Assembly: GCF_963675165.1 (NCBI RefSeq)
Contig: NC_087382.1
Span: 6,806,315-6,870,314, forward strand
Direction of reading: 5' to 3'
Length of the DNA stretch: 64,000 bases
Source of the DNA: Halichondria panicea
Lineage: Eukaryota > Porifera > Demospongiae > Suberitida > Halichondriidae
Of this stretch, positions 43,671 to 51,699 are shown piece by piece; within the stretch, counting starts at the first letter, position 1, and each line of letters opens with the position of its first letter. The position numbers were made by a program, and so were the translations under genes. The notes under the pieces were generated by a model, which searched no databases, was not told the origin of the DNA, and was given only the letters and a program-made list of their open reading frames with translations.

Positions 43671-44072
43671 GTCCGAAATCAGTTGTGCCTCGTTGCATTT
43701 TCCTGACTTCTGGACAACATCTACAATTGACCGCTACAATTGACTGCAGACTGCCTATTTGTGTCCGAAGACTATTTGTGTCCGAAGAGACCAAGCACCA
43801 GCACCAATCAGGTGCAAACTTTGTGTGACCCACTACCAGTGTGATGTTGATGATGTTGTGTGCCTTCCCGTGATGACCCTCCATAGCAGGTACTATTAAC
43901 AATGTATTGCCCGTGCTTCTCGAAGAAGTAGTGGATGGAGCCCTTCCCACAGCCTCCAGCCTCATCACATCAGCCTCATCACATCAGCCTCATCACATGG
44001 GAAGGCTTCACAGTGAACTCCGAAGATGGCGACTGTGAGGACGAACACTGGGCCGGGTTGTAGTGGATTACT

Positions 44073-44252
44073 TATGGAGCGCCAAAGTGGACAAAAATAT
44101 CGACGATTGATAGGCCAAGATCGTGAGTACATAATCGATCCAAAAGTGGGCGCGGTCATACATTTTTGATGATCGAAAAATATCAACAATGGATAGGCCA
44201 AGATCGTTAGTACATAATCGATCCAAAAGTGGGCCGCCCATACATTTTTGAT
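44073..44252. repeat. Left TIR with two subterminal repeat units
   Basis: After the terminal 20 bp, the unit ataggccaagatcgt(g/t)agt ... ccaaaagtgggcgcgg ... gatgatcgaaaaatatc occurs twice. Such arrays are usually transposase-binding sites; that role is inferred. Confidence 0.9.
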
Positions 44253-44364
44253 AGTTTGATAATGCCGCGCCAATTGATATTCGATCTACATGCAACCTGT
44301 GTGATGATTTAGTCTATTATCGACCTCTCAATCGTAGACATTGTGTTTGATATTCAAGAAGGTG

Positions 44365-44413
44365 TTAGCCTCGAGACCACGTCTTATTTCAATCGGCGTG
44401 GTCTCGAGGCTAA
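44365..44413. repeat. Perfect 17-bp hairpin, 15-nt loop
   Basis: ttagcctcgagaccacg is inverted at 44397-44413. It lies between the left TIR and the integrase gene. Confidence 0.9.
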
Positions 44414-44469
44414 GAACGTGTCAGCCTAGCCTCGATTCAAGGCCTAGTAAAATCAGCACTTTCTACTGA

Positions 44470-44516
44470 AGACCACGCCCTTTCTATGAGACTATGCTAT
44501 GTAAAGGGCGTGGTCT
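44470..44516. repeat. Perfect 14-bp hairpin around GGGCGTGGTC
   Basis: agaccacgcccttt is inverted at 44503-44516. Shares the CGTGGTCT core with the hairpin 60 bp to the left. Confidence 0.85.
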
Positions 44517-45243
44517 CTACTCTAGTTCTCACCTACAATAATAGCAGCTATTTTCTTTGCCAAGATCAAGAGCATGATAAGTGAGCCAAGCTGATTAATT
44601 CGATTGAGGGAGGGCATAGAGTATTAAGGTACTATAATTATTTGGTACTGTTTTATTAATCTTTAGTTTAGTAGGCTAACACAACCGTTTTCTACTTTGT
44701 TCGTTTGTTCTTGTAAGTATAAAAGAGTCATGGTGTAAGGTTGAGGATCTTCTCAAAGTCATAGGTAGCCTAACAGAATGACGTGTATGCGTATGTATTT
44801 ATATTGTGGGGAAAGGACGTCCCTCCCCAAACTGGACGTGAGCTATTGTATGCATATACCTACCTAGAATATTAAACTTTGTAATGCTTTACAATGTAAT
44901 GAAGGCTAATGAACTTGTCAATCTAATTCCCCCTCGATTAGACCAATCACATGATATAATACCCCTACCTTTGGGCATGTTATTTGGTTTAATCCCCCTA
45001 GTACAACATGGGGGTTATGTGGGGAATAGACCTATCACTACGTATAGCGAGAAGATAACAAATACAGAATCACTATATAAATATTGACAGCTATACTCTT
45101 ATAAAGCAAAAAGGCAGAGATTGCTTAGGATTAATAAACTGCTCTCACTGTACTCAGCATGTGTTGGAAGGATGAGTATGGCATGTGATCTTTTGACCCA
45201 ATGCATGCATCAGGTGATCTGTCTAAGTCCCCTAGGTAGGGAC

Positions 45244-45388
45244 AGAGGAGGTCCGACATGCGTGCACGAATCACTACAAGTTCAGTGCATTACAAGTTCA
45301 GTGCATTTGGCCTGGACATTATCACGTGACCGCAATGATATCAATGTACTGAACTTGTAGTGATTCGTGCATGTCAGACCTCCTCTGA
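45244..45388. repeat. Imperfect long hairpin, arms of about 43 bp
   Basis: The left arm (cagaggaggtccgacatg ... cacgaatcactacaagttcag) is inverted in the right arm (ctgaacttgtagtgattcgtg ... gacctcctctg). The left arm has a 4-nt insertion, and a 16-bp doublet of ttacaagttcagtgca lies next to the loop. It lies about 85 bp upstream of a TATA-like box. Confidence 0.85.
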
Positions 45389-45472
45389 GGTAGGGGAGCA
45401 ACTTCAAGTCTAATCCCCAACTAATCCCCACCTGGGGGAGGTGGGGCATTACTTTTACAAGTGCACAAATAA

Positions 45473-45481
45473 GTCTATAAA
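45473..45481 (+). promoter_or_regulatory. TATA-like box of the integrase gene
   Basis: TCTATAAAG lies 36 bp before the ATG, compatible with a short 5' leader. A candidate only, from sequence and spacing. Confidence 0.45.
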
Positions 45482-45516
45482 GACACACCCTCACTGTTAG
45501 GTACCATTTTCCTCAC

Positions 45517-47042
45517 ATGGCGATTTCTTTCCTTAGAATGTCAGCTTCTGAGATGATTGACTTCTTGCTTGAGGCTGAAGATACTATTACGAGAACAAAC
45601 ATGATGATACTTGAAGGTGATTTAACTGTTGTCGAAGATGCACTTTGTACTGCTGAGATGGTCCTTGGAGATATTCTGAGTGCTGAAGATTTGTTACCTT
45701 TTGGAAGTGGAGAAATATTAGTTGAACATGTGAGAAACATAGTTGTGTGTATTAATGAGGTGATTGATGATGAACACCGTTGTCACATTAGGGGACGACC
45801 ACAAATACCAATTAGTGAAGAAAGCCTTATTTTGCTGCTAAAAGCTCATTTTTCAACTACAGCCATTGGGAAAATGTTAGGCGTTTCATCTCGTACAATA
45901 AGGAGAAGAATAGTTCAATACGGAATGCAAGATGAGATAACATTCTCAGGGTTGAGCGACTCTGAGCTTGATGATATTACAACAAATTTTATCAGGACGC
46001 ATCCTAATTCTGGAGAACGATCACTAAGTGGCTTTTTGTGGAGTATAGGTATTCGGATCCAGCGCGCAAGAGTCAGGGAAAGTCTGAAGAGAATTGATCC
46101 CATTGGTGTGGCTTCACGCTTCCGGCAAGTTCTCCACCGGCGAAAATATAATGTATGCATGCCAAACAGCCTCTGGCACATAGACGGTTATCATAGGCTC
46201 ATTAAATGGCGTATTGTCATACATGGAGGCATTGACGGCTACTCCCGACTCCCTGTATATATGAAAGCTTCCACAAACAACAGGGCAGAGACAGTTTTAG
46301 ACAGTTTTTTGAGTGCAGTTCATGAGTATGGTCTACCCTCTAGAGTCCGAAGTGACAAGGGAGGAGAAAATGTGCTGGTGTCTCAGTTTATGCTTGATCA
46401 TCCAGAACGTGGGCCCGGACGTAAAAGTTTTATTACAGGACGGAGTGTCCACAATCAACGAATTGAGAGGTTGTGGAGGGACCTATTCACAGGATGCATA
46501 TCACTCTACTACGAGGTGTTCTCCTCCTTACAAGAAGATGGATTGTTGGACCCTCTGTGCAATACAGACCTGTTTTCCTTGCATTACATATATATCCCCC
46601 GAATCAACAGCCATTTGGATGAATTTCGCCAATCGTATGCTCATCATCGTTTAAGAACTGAGAAGAATCAGACTCCATACCAGTTGTGGACGAAAGGATT
46701 GTTACAAGGGTCAGGTGATGCTGCTGCTATACAAGGTGTTGCAAGTGATACATTGGTAAGAGTACAATGTAATTGTTTTGGGTGTTAGAGTGTTAGTTAT
46801 TAATGTTTTCTTCAGTGTTATCACAATGTGATTTATTGTAGGAATATTTTGGAATTGACTGGGAAGGTCCCGTCACTGTGTCTGATGATCTTGATCGTGT
46901 CACTATTCCTGAGACTAGGAATTGCATAAGTAGAGAGCAGCACATTGAGCTAGCACATGCTGTTGATCCTCTTGAAACCTGTGATGATCTTGGGATATCT
47001 TTGTATATTATCACTCGGGCTTATGTTGAAGCATGTCAGTGA
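45517..47042 (+). CDS. Integrase-type DDE transposase (IS3EU-like), intact, 2 exons
   Basis: Predicted to cut and join the ends of the surrounding element. Exon 1 is 45517-46755 and exon 2 is 46842-47042, joined at codon boundaries with GT-AG; 479 residues, no lesions. The N-terminus (1-90) is acidic and helical. Residues about 114-132 form a resolvase/IS3-like helix-turn-helix (AIGKMLGVSSRTIRRRI). The integrase core has the acidic triad D223 (LWHIDGYH), D280 (VRSDKGGEN) and E317 (NQRIERLW), a DD36E spacing. The C-terminus has HHRLRTEKNQTPYQLWTKG, a common end of eukaryotic rve-type proteins. It faces the HECT gene head-on inside shared TIRs. Proteins like this are often annotated as 'integrase core domain-containing' in animals. 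Confident as integrase fold, inferred as IS3EU. Confidence 0.92.
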
Positions 47043-47046
47043 CTGT

Positions 47047-47211
47047 AATTAATTTATATATAGCTAGTGTTTTAGTGTTTATATTTGTTTTGTCATGTGA
47101 TGCTGAATAAATTAATTTTGGCTACATATTAATTAATTTATATATAGCTAGTGTTTTAGTGTTTATATTTGTTTTGTCATGTGATATTGAATAAATTAAT
47201 TTTGTTAACTT
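47047..47211. repeat. 84-bp tandem duplication with AATAAA signals
   Basis: The unit beginning aattaatttatatatagcta and ending with gaataaattaattttg occurs twice directly after the integrase stop. Each unit holds an AATAAA, so the 3' end signal of the gene is doubled. Confidence 0.9.
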
Positions 47212-47380
47212 GTTATTAGAATCAATCATATAAGGTATATACCATATATTTGACGAAAGTGATGAGGCACAAAAGTGATTACATATGTGATGCCAAAATT
47301 AAACTGTCATGGTAGTAATGAATGTGAATCGAAAAAACACTGATAGCTGATTATATCTGAAAAATACACGAATGTTAGTG

Positions 47381-50300
47381 TTAGCACATTCCAAAACCTC
47401 CATGGTTTAGTATTCCATACTCCATGTTTTCTTTAAACCGGAGTTCATCATCATGAAACTTGGTTGGCAATGTTAATTGCAATGCACATGTTGAGGCCAA
47501 GGGATAGTTTGAAGTGGAGCTGAAGTGAATACTCACAGGGTTTCGACTATCAAAGCCCAAAACAGGTGGGTAGTCACTGCCAGTGAAGAAGTTTAGAACC
47601 TGACCTAGGCTCAACCCTGACTCGCTGCCTCCATCTGCATAAATCGGGGGGAAGCCGTTTAGTGTAGCATGATTTTTAATCTAATTACCTATTACCTTGT
47701 ATGTTATGCAACATATCCAAAAAAAGCATATACGACGCTTTCTCTTTGACTAATTCAGAAGTTCCAGATTCTGAAAAATGCACGTCACCTATCAGAGACC
47801 TAATCATATCTGAACAAAATAAAATGGAGGTAACAAACAAATTAAGAGGGATGCCAACCTACTTGCTGAAAGAGGTGGTTGCATTCCTTCAACAAAGAAT
47901 GGTTTTAGAATCTCACTGTACTTGGACATGGCCTCCCTCATCCCTAGAATGTTGAGCCCAGCTCGCAACTGGTCCAGAACTGCTTTGTTTCGGTACACAA
48001 CGAAGTGGAGCAATAGTGCTTTTACAAGCCCAGGTTTCTCTGACATGGTGATGGAAGCAATGGGTTTGGTGTACCCAGCTTCAAGTGCAGTGTCGATATC
48101 ACTCTGACAAGTCTGTCTAAGGCTTTCATTACATTCAGCTGCCTCGATCTTAAAAAGAAATCATGCAGTTATACATTATTTTTTAATAATGATAAGGTGT
48201 TCACCTGAGAGATATATTCCTTGACTTCGTAAGCCGGAACATCCTCCACACTGACATTCACCGATTCTGCACTCACGCCACATAAGTACTCGTATATCGG
48301 AGGTGCAATGAATGGAACACCACTGCTGCCTTGGAGTAACCCCATAGCAATCAAATTGCCAACATGTTCAAATTTCTTGTTCTAGAATAGCATAATTATA
48401 ATGGAGGCAAATCTATACATAAGAATAGTGAACCTGCAGTGCAACAACATCATGCCTTGGCACCAGGCGATCTCCAACCCCCTCAAACAAAGATGACTTC
48501 ACTTGCTTAAACAGGAGACACCAAAACTCCCGTTTTAAACCACCCCCATCTTCACCTGCCTCCCCAAGAAACTCCACCTATATTACAGTAACACATGCAA
48601 TCAATTATAGTGGCCAATGTAAAGTACCTTCTTACAATGATAGTGTGGTCGATTGGAAAAGAACCACGCCTAACGGTGCGTAAAGCATCGTCGAGAACAT
48701 TTTCCCGTCTCACAGTTACAGTCACTTCTTCACCTGTCACATACTTGGAGAGAGACTTCAGAAGGTCTGCTATTGTTGCAATTGATTCAGAACTGAATAG
48801 GGCATTCATTTAATCTCAACTACAACCAACTTGCGTAAATTACCTGTTGTTCTTAGAGAGAGAAATTGCACGGTCTATCATCTCTTGCTCGGTTTGTTCA
48901 ACCTGTAGTAAAAGATATCATCAAAAATCTAGTAAATGTATACACTTCCCACTTACATCATTGTCAGACTCAGAAGAAATTGAAATAAGGGGCTCTGATG
49001 TTGGCTTCTTCGGTGGGGGGGAAGTGTCATCACTATCCCAATGAAGTTCTCGTTTCAAGCTGTAAAGCAATTAATGACATTGTTAAATCATCATTAATTT
49101 TTGTAAAGTATCAACCTCAAAGGAGGCCTTCTTGGTGGAACAGGGTCTTCAAAGTCGTCTGAATCACTGTCTGATTCGAGTCCACGGCTCAGACTAATTA
49201 CAGTATAATTATACATAATTATAATTGATTAATGGCAAGTACCTTGACTTCTTCCACTTGCAAATGTTAACGTGAGCACGTAGGTCAACCACTGGCACTT
49301 TAATGTCACAGTGTAAACACTTCTCCTTTAGCTATTAGAGATAGATAATTATACATGTAGCCAACTAGCTGAAGGTGCATGTTCTGTATTTTACCTCATT
49401 AGAGTTTCCTGCTATAGGATTGACATCTAAGCTTTTTTGAATGGGTCGGATGAATACCCGGCCATTGCCAATGACGCTCTTTAGTACCTTGGGAGATGCT
49501 GCAATTACTGGTGAAATTAATTCCAGATCTTTAGTATTTGGAACACATCGAAGCAGCTCGAACCCTCCACACCCATTCAACTTGGAGAATGATGAGATTA
49601 TGATTTCGTTGAAGTCCTTTGCAGAGCATTCTATGTCTGGGATTACTGTCTTTTTTTCTCCTAACCCAGCACTGACAAGCACATTTCGGTCATACACACT
49701 GCAGGGTACTTTTTTTGCTTCTGTACTGCTGAGACAGACTAACTTCACAGTCCAACTCTTGTGTTTCGTTGAACTCTTTCTCTCATATGGGGCAAAGTTT
49801 GCCTTCTGCTCGGATGTTCCCCCTTGGAGTCGTTCCTTCTTGGAGTCGTTCCCTAACGGAACGAAGGGCTTCTACGGCTCTGCTGCATGACCCACTGGCA
49901 CCATGCCTCACACCTAATGGATCATTATTAGTAAGATTGTGTATGCACTAATTATATAGCACCACTCTCAATTTATTCTACTCTTGATTATACCAAAATT
50001 TATTTGTCCAATGGCCATACCGTATAAGCTCTTTTTATGGCGCCACATTAAAATAATTACGCTGGTAAAGGTGGCTCTATTATGAGGTTGGAAAATTAGT
50101 TTCGAGTCTTTAGAAGAGCGCCTTCTAATTGGAGGTAAAAAAACAGCTTTGCAAATGGACTGTGCATGTGCATGGCACCTGCAGCAGTTTTCTTGTTCTT
50201 CCAACAGGCCTGTGCGTACGTTGCACACGTTAAAGAGGCACTGTGTGGCCCAAATGTGGAAGGAAGAATTCTGTGATTGGCTTGCTCATTTTACCTCTAT

Positions 50301-50724
50301 TTACCAATGCACCGTCAAAAAATAATTACTCACACGTGGTGGAGCTCCATTAGGAGTTTCAAAAATTACTTTGGAGGCTTCATGGCGCATCTTTAGAGGG
50401 GCGCTTTAAAAAATGCTTATATGGTATTAATGTGATACTTATTTTCACACAATCACACATCACTCTAGCTCAATAAAGATGTGCCTTATAATTAGCACCA
50501 TGTTAGCACGTACGTACTTATAGCTTAGTATAGTACAGAGTACAAAAGATCTACAGAGAACTCCATAAACTCAAGCTAGCTAGCTGCACTTAACACTTAC
50601 CATGCTGTGAAGGCGTTGACAATGAAGTGGATGTACTGGGTGTAGTGCTCTCAGCCGAGCTCTCAGCCGAGCTCTCAGCAATAGATGCGAGAAGCTTAAT
50701 AGCCTGCTTGACCTTGTCCTCCAT
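47381..50724 (-). CDS. HECT-type E3 ubiquitin ligase (G2E3-like), 12 exons, one 16-bp duplication
   Basis: Predicted to take ubiquitin on its HECT cysteine and transfer it to substrates. Exons (minus) are 50724-50601, 49913-49395, 49331-49243, 49193-49116, 49059-48957, 48902-48844, 48792-48636, 48577-48434, 48381-48205, 48148-47863, 47809-47696 and 47634-47381; all GT-AG with agreeing phases. About 695 residues: Ser-rich start (MEDKVKQAIKLLASIAE), a conserved N-terminal domain (LVSAGLGEKKTVIPDIE ... GRVFIRPIQKSLD), a C2HC finger (CLHCDIKVPVVDLRAHVNIC, about 213-232), an acidic linker, a ubiquitin-interacting motif (EQEMIDRAISLSKNN, about 302-316) and HECT (320 to end; VEFLGEAGEDGGGLKREFW; catalytic Cys about 661 in LASTCALQL). 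The only lesion is a 16-bp duplication at 49823-49852 in exon 2; without it every phase fits. Confidence 0.92.
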
Positions 50725-50802
50725 ATTACTTGCTACACAACACGTGGTCATTTGCTAACACGCATGCGCCAGTAATAATCACCCCAGCGCCACCGCAGCA
50801 AA

Positions 50803-51064
50803 AATGTATGGCCGCGCCCACTTTTGGATCGATTATTATGTACTAACGATCTTGGCCTATCCATCGTCGATATTTTTCGATCATCAAATATGTATGACCG
50901 CGCCCACTTTTGGATCGATTATGTACTAACGATCTTGGCCTATCCATTGTCGATATTTTTCGATCATCAAAAATGTATGACCGCGCCCACTTTTGGATCG
51001 ATTTATGTACTCACGATCTTGGCCTATCAATTGTCGATATTTTTGTCCACTTTGGCGCTCCATA
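50803..51064. repeat. Right TIR with three subterminal repeat units
   Basis: Inverse of the left TIR but with one more 88-bp unit. Its inner edge lies 79 bp from the HECT start codon, so the ligase promoter probably overlaps the array. Confidence 0.9.
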
Positions 51065-51699
51065 ATTACTTGGGTAATGCACCTGAAGTACGTGAAGCGT
51101 GCCATTATAGGTTACCCATTAAATTTTTAAGGAGGGTGGTCAATATTAAGATTTGATGACTGTAGGGTACATGTACATGCGCTTTGCTAAGCTTACAATT
51201 AATAAACTGGAATTTGGTTGCCACATACACTGTACTTTAACAATAATATTTTTTAACAATTGGGATCTGAGTTGGCCTGAATGTGCCATTCACGGTGTAG
51301 TGAGTAATGATGGACTCTTTGCACTCTTTCAAGATGGTCGTATTATACGGTGGTCTGGACAGCTGTGCCATGCGTCCAGCACAAGTCTGTCATCCACTCC
51401 ACTTCACGTGACTGTCATCGCATCTTTATATACCTTCCAGCTTTATATACCTTCCAGAGCGTTGTATGTACTCACTGTGTGTCTCTGGTAGTAGTGTAAG
51501 TATAGTATAGAGTGAAATTTCATAGATCGTTCACCGAGCCCCACCTTCTCCCTGATGTCAATTGAAGTGGGTCACTGTCCAACGATGATGGGTGATGATG
51601 GACTGTCCGGGTACCATACTGCTCTTTGCAGTTCTAAAGAGATACCGAGATACCTGGTGACAATAGGGCTGATGGTTATACAAGGTAATGGATTTCTAT

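Follow-up and report, generated by a model that had tools for sequence, protein, structure and literature searches.

A DNA transposon of the IS3EU type in the demosponge Halichondria panicea (NCBI RefSeq assembly GCF_963675165.1, contig NC_087382.1, forward-strand positions 6,806,315 to 6,870,314; this whole stretch of 64,000 nucleotides is called the window hereafter) contains a gene for a HECT-type ubiquitin ligase beside its integrase-type transposase gene. The locus raises the question of whether the ligase belongs to the transposon and, if so, what it does there. Our answer, drawn from the sequence data of a single species, is that the mobile unit encloses both genes, which travel jointly and recur in several diverged families. 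We consider it likely that the element is an autonomous IS3EU-type transposon, that in many of its families in this genome the usual gene content is an integrase and a convergent HECT ligase between terminal repeats, and that the ligase is a functional component of the transposon. Probably, it promotes the spread or the survival of the element in its host.

The element occupies positions 44073-51064 of the window (6,992 bp), with the motif ATTACT directly outside both ends, and its termini have the form TA..TA (sequences in Table 1). Its inverted arms, of 126, 102 and 66 nucleotides at 95, 99 and 97% complementarity, respectively, are built from an 83-84-bp unit that is present twice on the left and three times, in inverted orientation, on the right. 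The ends enclose a two-exon integrase gene and a facing 12-exon HECT gene, the stop codons of which are about 340 bp apart. An unoccupied site was also found on contig C1, where a related repeat can be aligned over the joined flanks and has a single 6-bp motif, ATCACT in place of ATTACT, which indicates an insertion with a 6-bp duplication. A first-pass annotation of the window had proposed these termini, the inverted subrepeats, the ATTACT repeat and the exact coordinates, all of which are borne out on the sequence; the two genes that it placed inside (an integrase-type DDE protein and a 12-exon ligase) are confirmed by gene models and Pfam, and its IS3EU-type assignment agrees with the termini, the duplication length and the type of integrase. 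The insertion sits in a repeat (window positions 43988-44072 and 51071-51160), relatives of which match across the junction at C1:12721155, C5:4149689 and C7:5331877; among these three, the sequence was inspected for the relative on contig C1.

Searching the genome with the left terminal repeat locates the ends of seven copies of this element (family A) and one extra fragment at C6:6776703 (L022), which has no partner end and was left uncounted. Integrase and HECT exons are present in 7/7 copies, that is, the other copies found by the terminal repeat also hold the two genes together. The six copies with both ends readable lie at different sites, each flanked by its own perfect duplication (ATTACT, GAATAA, GATACA, CATACTA, ATCCTT and AGTCAG, where the 7-bp CATACTA belongs to copy A4), whereas the duplication of copy A7 is not assessable since this copy runs into N. 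The earlier proposal that the ligase travels with the element is supported by these six copies, with six different duplications and both genes in each. In a comparison of at most 1 kb in the 3'-terminal part of the HECT gene, a total of 10 single-base differences separate the six other copies from the window copy, which suggests that family A moved recently. Copies A2 and A4 match the ligase over nearly all exons, as judged by the extents of the matches, with the middle exons left unread.

The pairing of the two genes can also be counted across the genome. An integrase search (109 matches; 99 of 248 candidates scored) gives 93 clusters, and on the HECT side 95 pieces and 31 diverged pieces, 126 in total, give 64 clusters; the diverged set excludes the rows of family A and seven rows of the last exon whose places were already counted. 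A profile search with PF24764, which is kept outside this count, gives 156 matches. Integrase and HECT do recur together in this genome, a point that the first-pass annotation had raised: for 35 of the 64 HECT clusters a related integrase cluster is found no more than 5 kb away, compared with 0.49 expected under uniform placement, and 35/35 pairs are convergent. The pairs fall into 15 groups in a rough sorting by integrase identity and frame length, made with no tree. Among the best 30 integrase loci, 25 are accompanied by convergent HECT matches inside the 1.5-kb flank, and two further loci, L049 (D1) and L051, pair with HECT by coordinates. Most of the 29 HECT clusters that have no such integrase within 5 kb are presumably ordinary host genes; four of them (C1:6305052, C10:4069356, C11:3302059 and C12:4330131) resemble the transposon ligase.

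Four further families, B, C, E and J (integrase identity 45-52%), each contain one or more elements in which the two genes are enclosed by termini of the family's own and by a perfect duplication. Eight elements of these families were compared (B1, B2, C1, C2, E1, E2, J1 and J2), and in every one of them the HECT matches are oriented towards the integrase. The perfect duplications are 6 bp long (TACATC in B1, CTAGTC in B2, CGGGTC in element C1, ACAGCC in E1, GATTTG in E2 and CTGGTA in J1); the flanks of element C2 differ, giving an imperfect duplication, and the left end of J2 was not located. Altogether, perfect duplications flank 12 of the 15 elements examined; their length is 6 bp in 11 elements and 7 bp in A4. 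The terminal sequences are TATGG..CCATA in families A, B, C and E and TATGAGG..CCTCATA in family J.

The product of the integrase gene has 479 residues and matches PF24764 (rva_4) with E=1.9e-83; the match to PF00665 (rve), at 1.1e-7, is slightly below its own cut-off. D223, D280 and E317 are invariant across 24 and across 28 aligned integrase sequences. N-terminal to the core, a general Pfam scan, with no test aimed at an HHCC zinc motif, gives only helix-turn-helix-like matches, all below their cut-offs. The predicted structure of the integrase is poor, and it matches retroviral integrases weakly (best E 0.16).

The HECT gene lies on the minus strand in 12 exons (50724-47381), with GT..AG borders in all introns, and encodes 680 residues as modelled. 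A 15-exon model obtained by dynamic programming was dropped, its 5' exons being doubtful. PF00632 matches residues 404-679 (E=5.1e-10; 39.9 bits vs a cut-off of 23.9). The first-pass annotation described an intact ligase with a C2HC finger, a ubiquitin-interacting motif (UIM) and the HECT cysteine. Of this description, the HECT domain and the cysteine motif stand; the finger and the UIM are recognized by eye and, like a PHD-type finger, have no Pfam match at E<=0.5, and the intactness is doubtful in view of a 14-bp deletion in exon 2 (see below). G2E3-like ligases have PHD/RING-like fingers ahead of the HECT domain. Within intron 1, positions 50018-50440 form a stretch between imperfect inverted sequences, ACCGTATAAGC.. 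and ..GCTTATATGGT (by eye), which is found in copies A1-A4 and A7 and might be the remnant of a non-autonomous element that inserted there long ago.

Among the database proteins scored, the one most similar to the ligase is LOC135336110 (P0001), an uncharacterized protein of H. panicea, which has 467 residues and stops within the HECT domain. Very probably, LOC135336110 derives from a copy of the window's element, and an extra stop in the row of copy A7 for the exon concerned suggests that this copy is the source. Protein searches, in which the best 7,995 or 7,994 candidates by shared words were scored, give four relatives with the ligase itself and seven using an alignment; one of them, Em0018g519a, we take from its tag to be from Ephydatia muelleri. 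Ahead of the HECT part is a domain, GGFELLRC..IRPIQ (residues 109-212 of P0001), that is confidently predicted as a small alpha/beta fold and has no Pfam match. The same domain occurs in P0004, there with a SAM domain, and is matched in families B, C and E, where B and E also show a C2HC-like finger by eye. The structure model of P0001 is of low confidence overall (predicted local distance difference test score 60.7), with a confident N-terminal domain, and the predicted structure of this close copy's protein supports the HECT N-lobe fold. The VIA-align structural rows cover chiefly the HECT part of the ligase model. Foldseek lists ubiquitin-like chains of USP7 at ranks 45, 46 and 50 (E 0.017-0.023), a faint lead in which the matched part of the model is not specified.

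For the question of whether the ligase is maintained, the C-lobe frames of families A, B, C, E and J and of locus L060, the integrase of which is decayed, are informative: all contain STC followed by the L/F-P motif. These frames were chosen by the STC motif, yet they are the same as the C-lobe frames found independently by tblastn (six families checked). Differences in the last HECT exon are most frequent at third positions. The ratio of nonsynonymous to synonymous substitution rates (dN/dS, NG86 method) for this exon is about 0.08 for A-L060, 0.25 for A-B, 0.20 for C-E and 0.28 for A-J; six of the 15 possible pairs were run. Four gave values, which are rough because dS is near saturation, and for the other two no dS could be computed. 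Judging from these frames, the catalytic end of the ligase is conserved as under purifying selection. A Mantel comparison of integrase identity and last-exon HECT identity in the six families gives a modest correlation (r=0.47; 12/720 permutations) based on the last HECT exon alone. Modest support is thus given to a long-term joint descent of integrase and HECT rather than repeated capture.

The near saturation of dS and the modest size of this correlation weigh against our reading of the element, and several other observations do so as well. In the first 1.7 kb on the ligase side, where the copies were compared, the window copy is without 14 bp of exon 2, near its 5' end, that are present in A2, A3, A4 and A7. 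P0001 fits an exon-2 acceptor at 49913, 61 nucleotides upstream of the modelled one at 49852. With the P0001-type acceptor, the deletion shifts the frame, and the 680-residue frame requires the acceptor at 49852; the window ligase may therefore be either frameshifted or saved by this later acceptor. In copy A5, the integrase match breaks at residue 379. Close to three of the best 30 integrase loci (L048, L050 and L054), no HECT is seen. Of the 93 integrase clusters, 58 are without a partner, although one of these, L059, has HECT by flank search. Finally, A5 and A6 share an insertion that disrupts the HECT gene, yet they lie at different sites with their own outer duplications, which indicates that HECT is not required in cis for every hop.

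This insertion accounts for the extra length of A5 (C2:2778152-2791644; L017, L023 and L061; 13.5 kb) and A6 (C1:8641118-8655131; 14.0 kb). In both, the same second transposon, which contains a MULE transposase (PF10551) and a ubiquitin-specific protease (USP; PF00443), is located in HECT exon 1. The nested element is bounded by inverted ends about 57 bp long and flanked by what looks like an 8-bp duplication, GTCAAGCA; its sequence was inspected in A5, and A6 agrees at the border and in the domain positions. Given that A5 and A6 differ in their outer duplications, it is probable that the composite transposed as one piece once the MULE/USP insertion had taken place; spread of the insertion between A5 and A6 by gene conversion is less likely. 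Another MULE match and another USP match are about 4 kb apart on contig C11 (3521230 and 3525382).

Integrases that have no HECT partner are often arranged in facing pairs about 7-27 kb apart (C9:2874299/2880896, C1:8835013/8842788, C13:4273617/4280732, C6:2972063/2978670, C8:780850/796363, C16:4429644/4446133 and C1:4126636/4153225), which are perhaps elements of a different design.

What remains is the role of the ligase. By analogy with known families, the integrase would cut at the TA..TA ends and insert with a 6-bp stagger, and ubiquitin would be transferred via the HECT cysteine; less firmly, the N-terminal domain, the finger and the UIM-like stretch might select the substrate. The substrate that we find most plausible, with a probability somewhat short of even, is a set of nuclear host factors responsible for silencing or restriction of the element. 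This target is proposed because the TET/JBP dioxygenase genes of fungal IS3EU elements are suggested to aid silencing escape (PMC12730594). The first-pass annotation had named host repressors, the transposase and DNA-repair factors as possible targets; these suggestions, like its idea that such elements might account for the abundance of G2E3-like HECT genes in some animals, are conjectural.

Alternatively, the ligase might ubiquitinate the element's own machinery, either the integrase or its strand-transfer complex, and so keep the level down or remove the complex from DNA to let repair be completed. We regard this as possible and as somewhat less probable than the host factors. As would be expected of direct partners, the two genes stay together and their divergences correlate across families, and the UIM-like stretch could bind ubiquitinated complexes; however, A5 and A6 moved despite the MULE insertion in their HECT gene, for which a ligase supplied in trans might account. 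It is improbable that the ligase is passenger cargo, captured once and of no benefit to the element: movement of copies with a broken HECT exon 1, the possible frameshift in the window copy and integrase families showing no HECT are all consistent with such cargo, but the STC motif is kept in six families with rough dN/dS values far under 1, and the ligase is kept in 15 roughly sorted groups. A host HECT gene that ended up next to or within a transposon through chance or local duplication, for which the 29 unpaired HECT clusters might speak, is ruled out by the excess of convergent pairs over expectation and by the perfect target-site duplications that enclose both genes in 12 of the 15 elements.

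A transposon with its own ubiquitin ligase offers a handle on how elements evade or exploit host protein degradation, and the near-identical copies that match the ligase over nearly all exons make its role testable. In addition, annotated HECT genes that occur in multiple copies should be treated with caution, since they may belong to transposons, as LOC135336110 very probably does. More tentatively, there might be an animal IS3EU lineage in which a HECT subunit has long served to disarm restriction by the host or to resolve transposition complexes, in which case many scattered HECT genes of sponges, and perhaps of other animals, would be transposon genes.

Table 1. Positions in the window of the parts of the element and its flanking duplications
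Feature	Positions	Strand
Left target-site duplication, ATTACT	44067..44072	none
Left terminal inverted repeat, begins TATGGAGCGCC, two 83-bp subrepeat units	44073..44250	+
Integrase-type transposase exon 1, rve/rva_4 core with D223, D280 and E317	45517..46755	+
Transposase exon 2, stop included	46842..47042	+
Two tandem 84-bp units (repeat family D3) between the converging genes	47046..47213	none
HECT exon 12, catalytic cysteine motif ASTCALQLTLP	47381..47634	-
HECT exon 11	47696..47809	-
HECT exon 10	47863..48148	-
HECT exon 9	48205..48381	-
HECT exon 8	48434..48577	-
HECT exon 7	48636..48792	-
HECT exon 6, UIM-like stretch (by eye)	48844..48902	-
HECT exon 5	48957..49059	-
HECT exon 4	49116..49193	-
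HECT exon 3, C2HC-like finger (by eye)	49243..49331	-
HECT exon 2 as modelled in the window copy, conserved N-terminal domain (GGFELLRC...IRPIQ)	49395..49852	-
HECT exon 1	50601..50724	-
Right terminal inverted repeat, three subrepeat units, closes with GGCGCTCCATA	50796..51064	-
Right target-site duplication, ATTACT	51065..51070	none

Relatives were also sought in other sequence collections. Among viral contigs, the integrase alignment gives 31 pattern matches and the ligase alignment five, with no relative either way. Among genome contigs, 17 pattern matches to the integrase reduce to six loci, of which three are short contigs in a metagenome-assembled genome (MAG) of a Poecilosclerida sponge symbiont and three are weak matches in bacterial MAGs. 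No HECT is seen on the three Poecilosclerida contigs, the short flanks of which (about 60 bp; a frame that is retroelement-like by eye; 1.2 kb) make this result undecisive. One passage of PMC5638112 mentions G2E3 matches among the unclassified repeats of a fish, and the main text of PMC4255032 has no occurrence of HECT or IS3. No literature joining IS3EU with HECT was found in a search that lay outside Repbase and most subscription papers, and none of the listed matches for HECT and transposon is fitting by title.

The sponge ligase can be compared first with other HECT ligases. The HECT N-lobe, in sequence and predicted fold, and the C-lobe cysteine motif are common to it, HUWE1 and the NEDD4 family; unlike these ligases, it has an N-terminal domain with no Pfam match. 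Among transposons, plant MULE-type elements are known that carry a gene for a ubiquitin or SUMO protease. These likewise combine a DNA transposon with a ubiquitin-pathway gene, but the transposase belongs to another superfamily and the enzyme is a removing enzyme, not a ligase.

IS3EU elements, including fungal ones with extra genes, are already known, and the HECT ligase as a companion gene may be a new variant of them, of which a prior record is possible. According to PMC10045372, IS3EU/GingerRoot elements have TA..TA termini, usually 6-bp duplications and an integrase-like transposase, in all of which the sponge element is alike; its passages on these elements mention no second gene and its main text does not contain the word ubiquitin, whereas the sponge families carry HECT. 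The fungal TET+ IS3EU elements reported in 2025 have, in the main text of PMC12730594, TAYGG..CCRTA ends, 6-bp duplications and extra genes, one of which is opposed to the transposase. The extra genes there are an alpha-kinase, which is the opposed one, and a TET/JBP dioxygenase, and neither HECT nor ubiquitin occurs in that main text. Alpha-kinase as a second gene has 8 matches in the sponge genome, none of them near the integrase places (compared by eye). The sponge element thus resembles the fungal ones in its ends, its 6-bp duplication and its opposed second gene, and differs in that this second gene encodes a HECT ligase.

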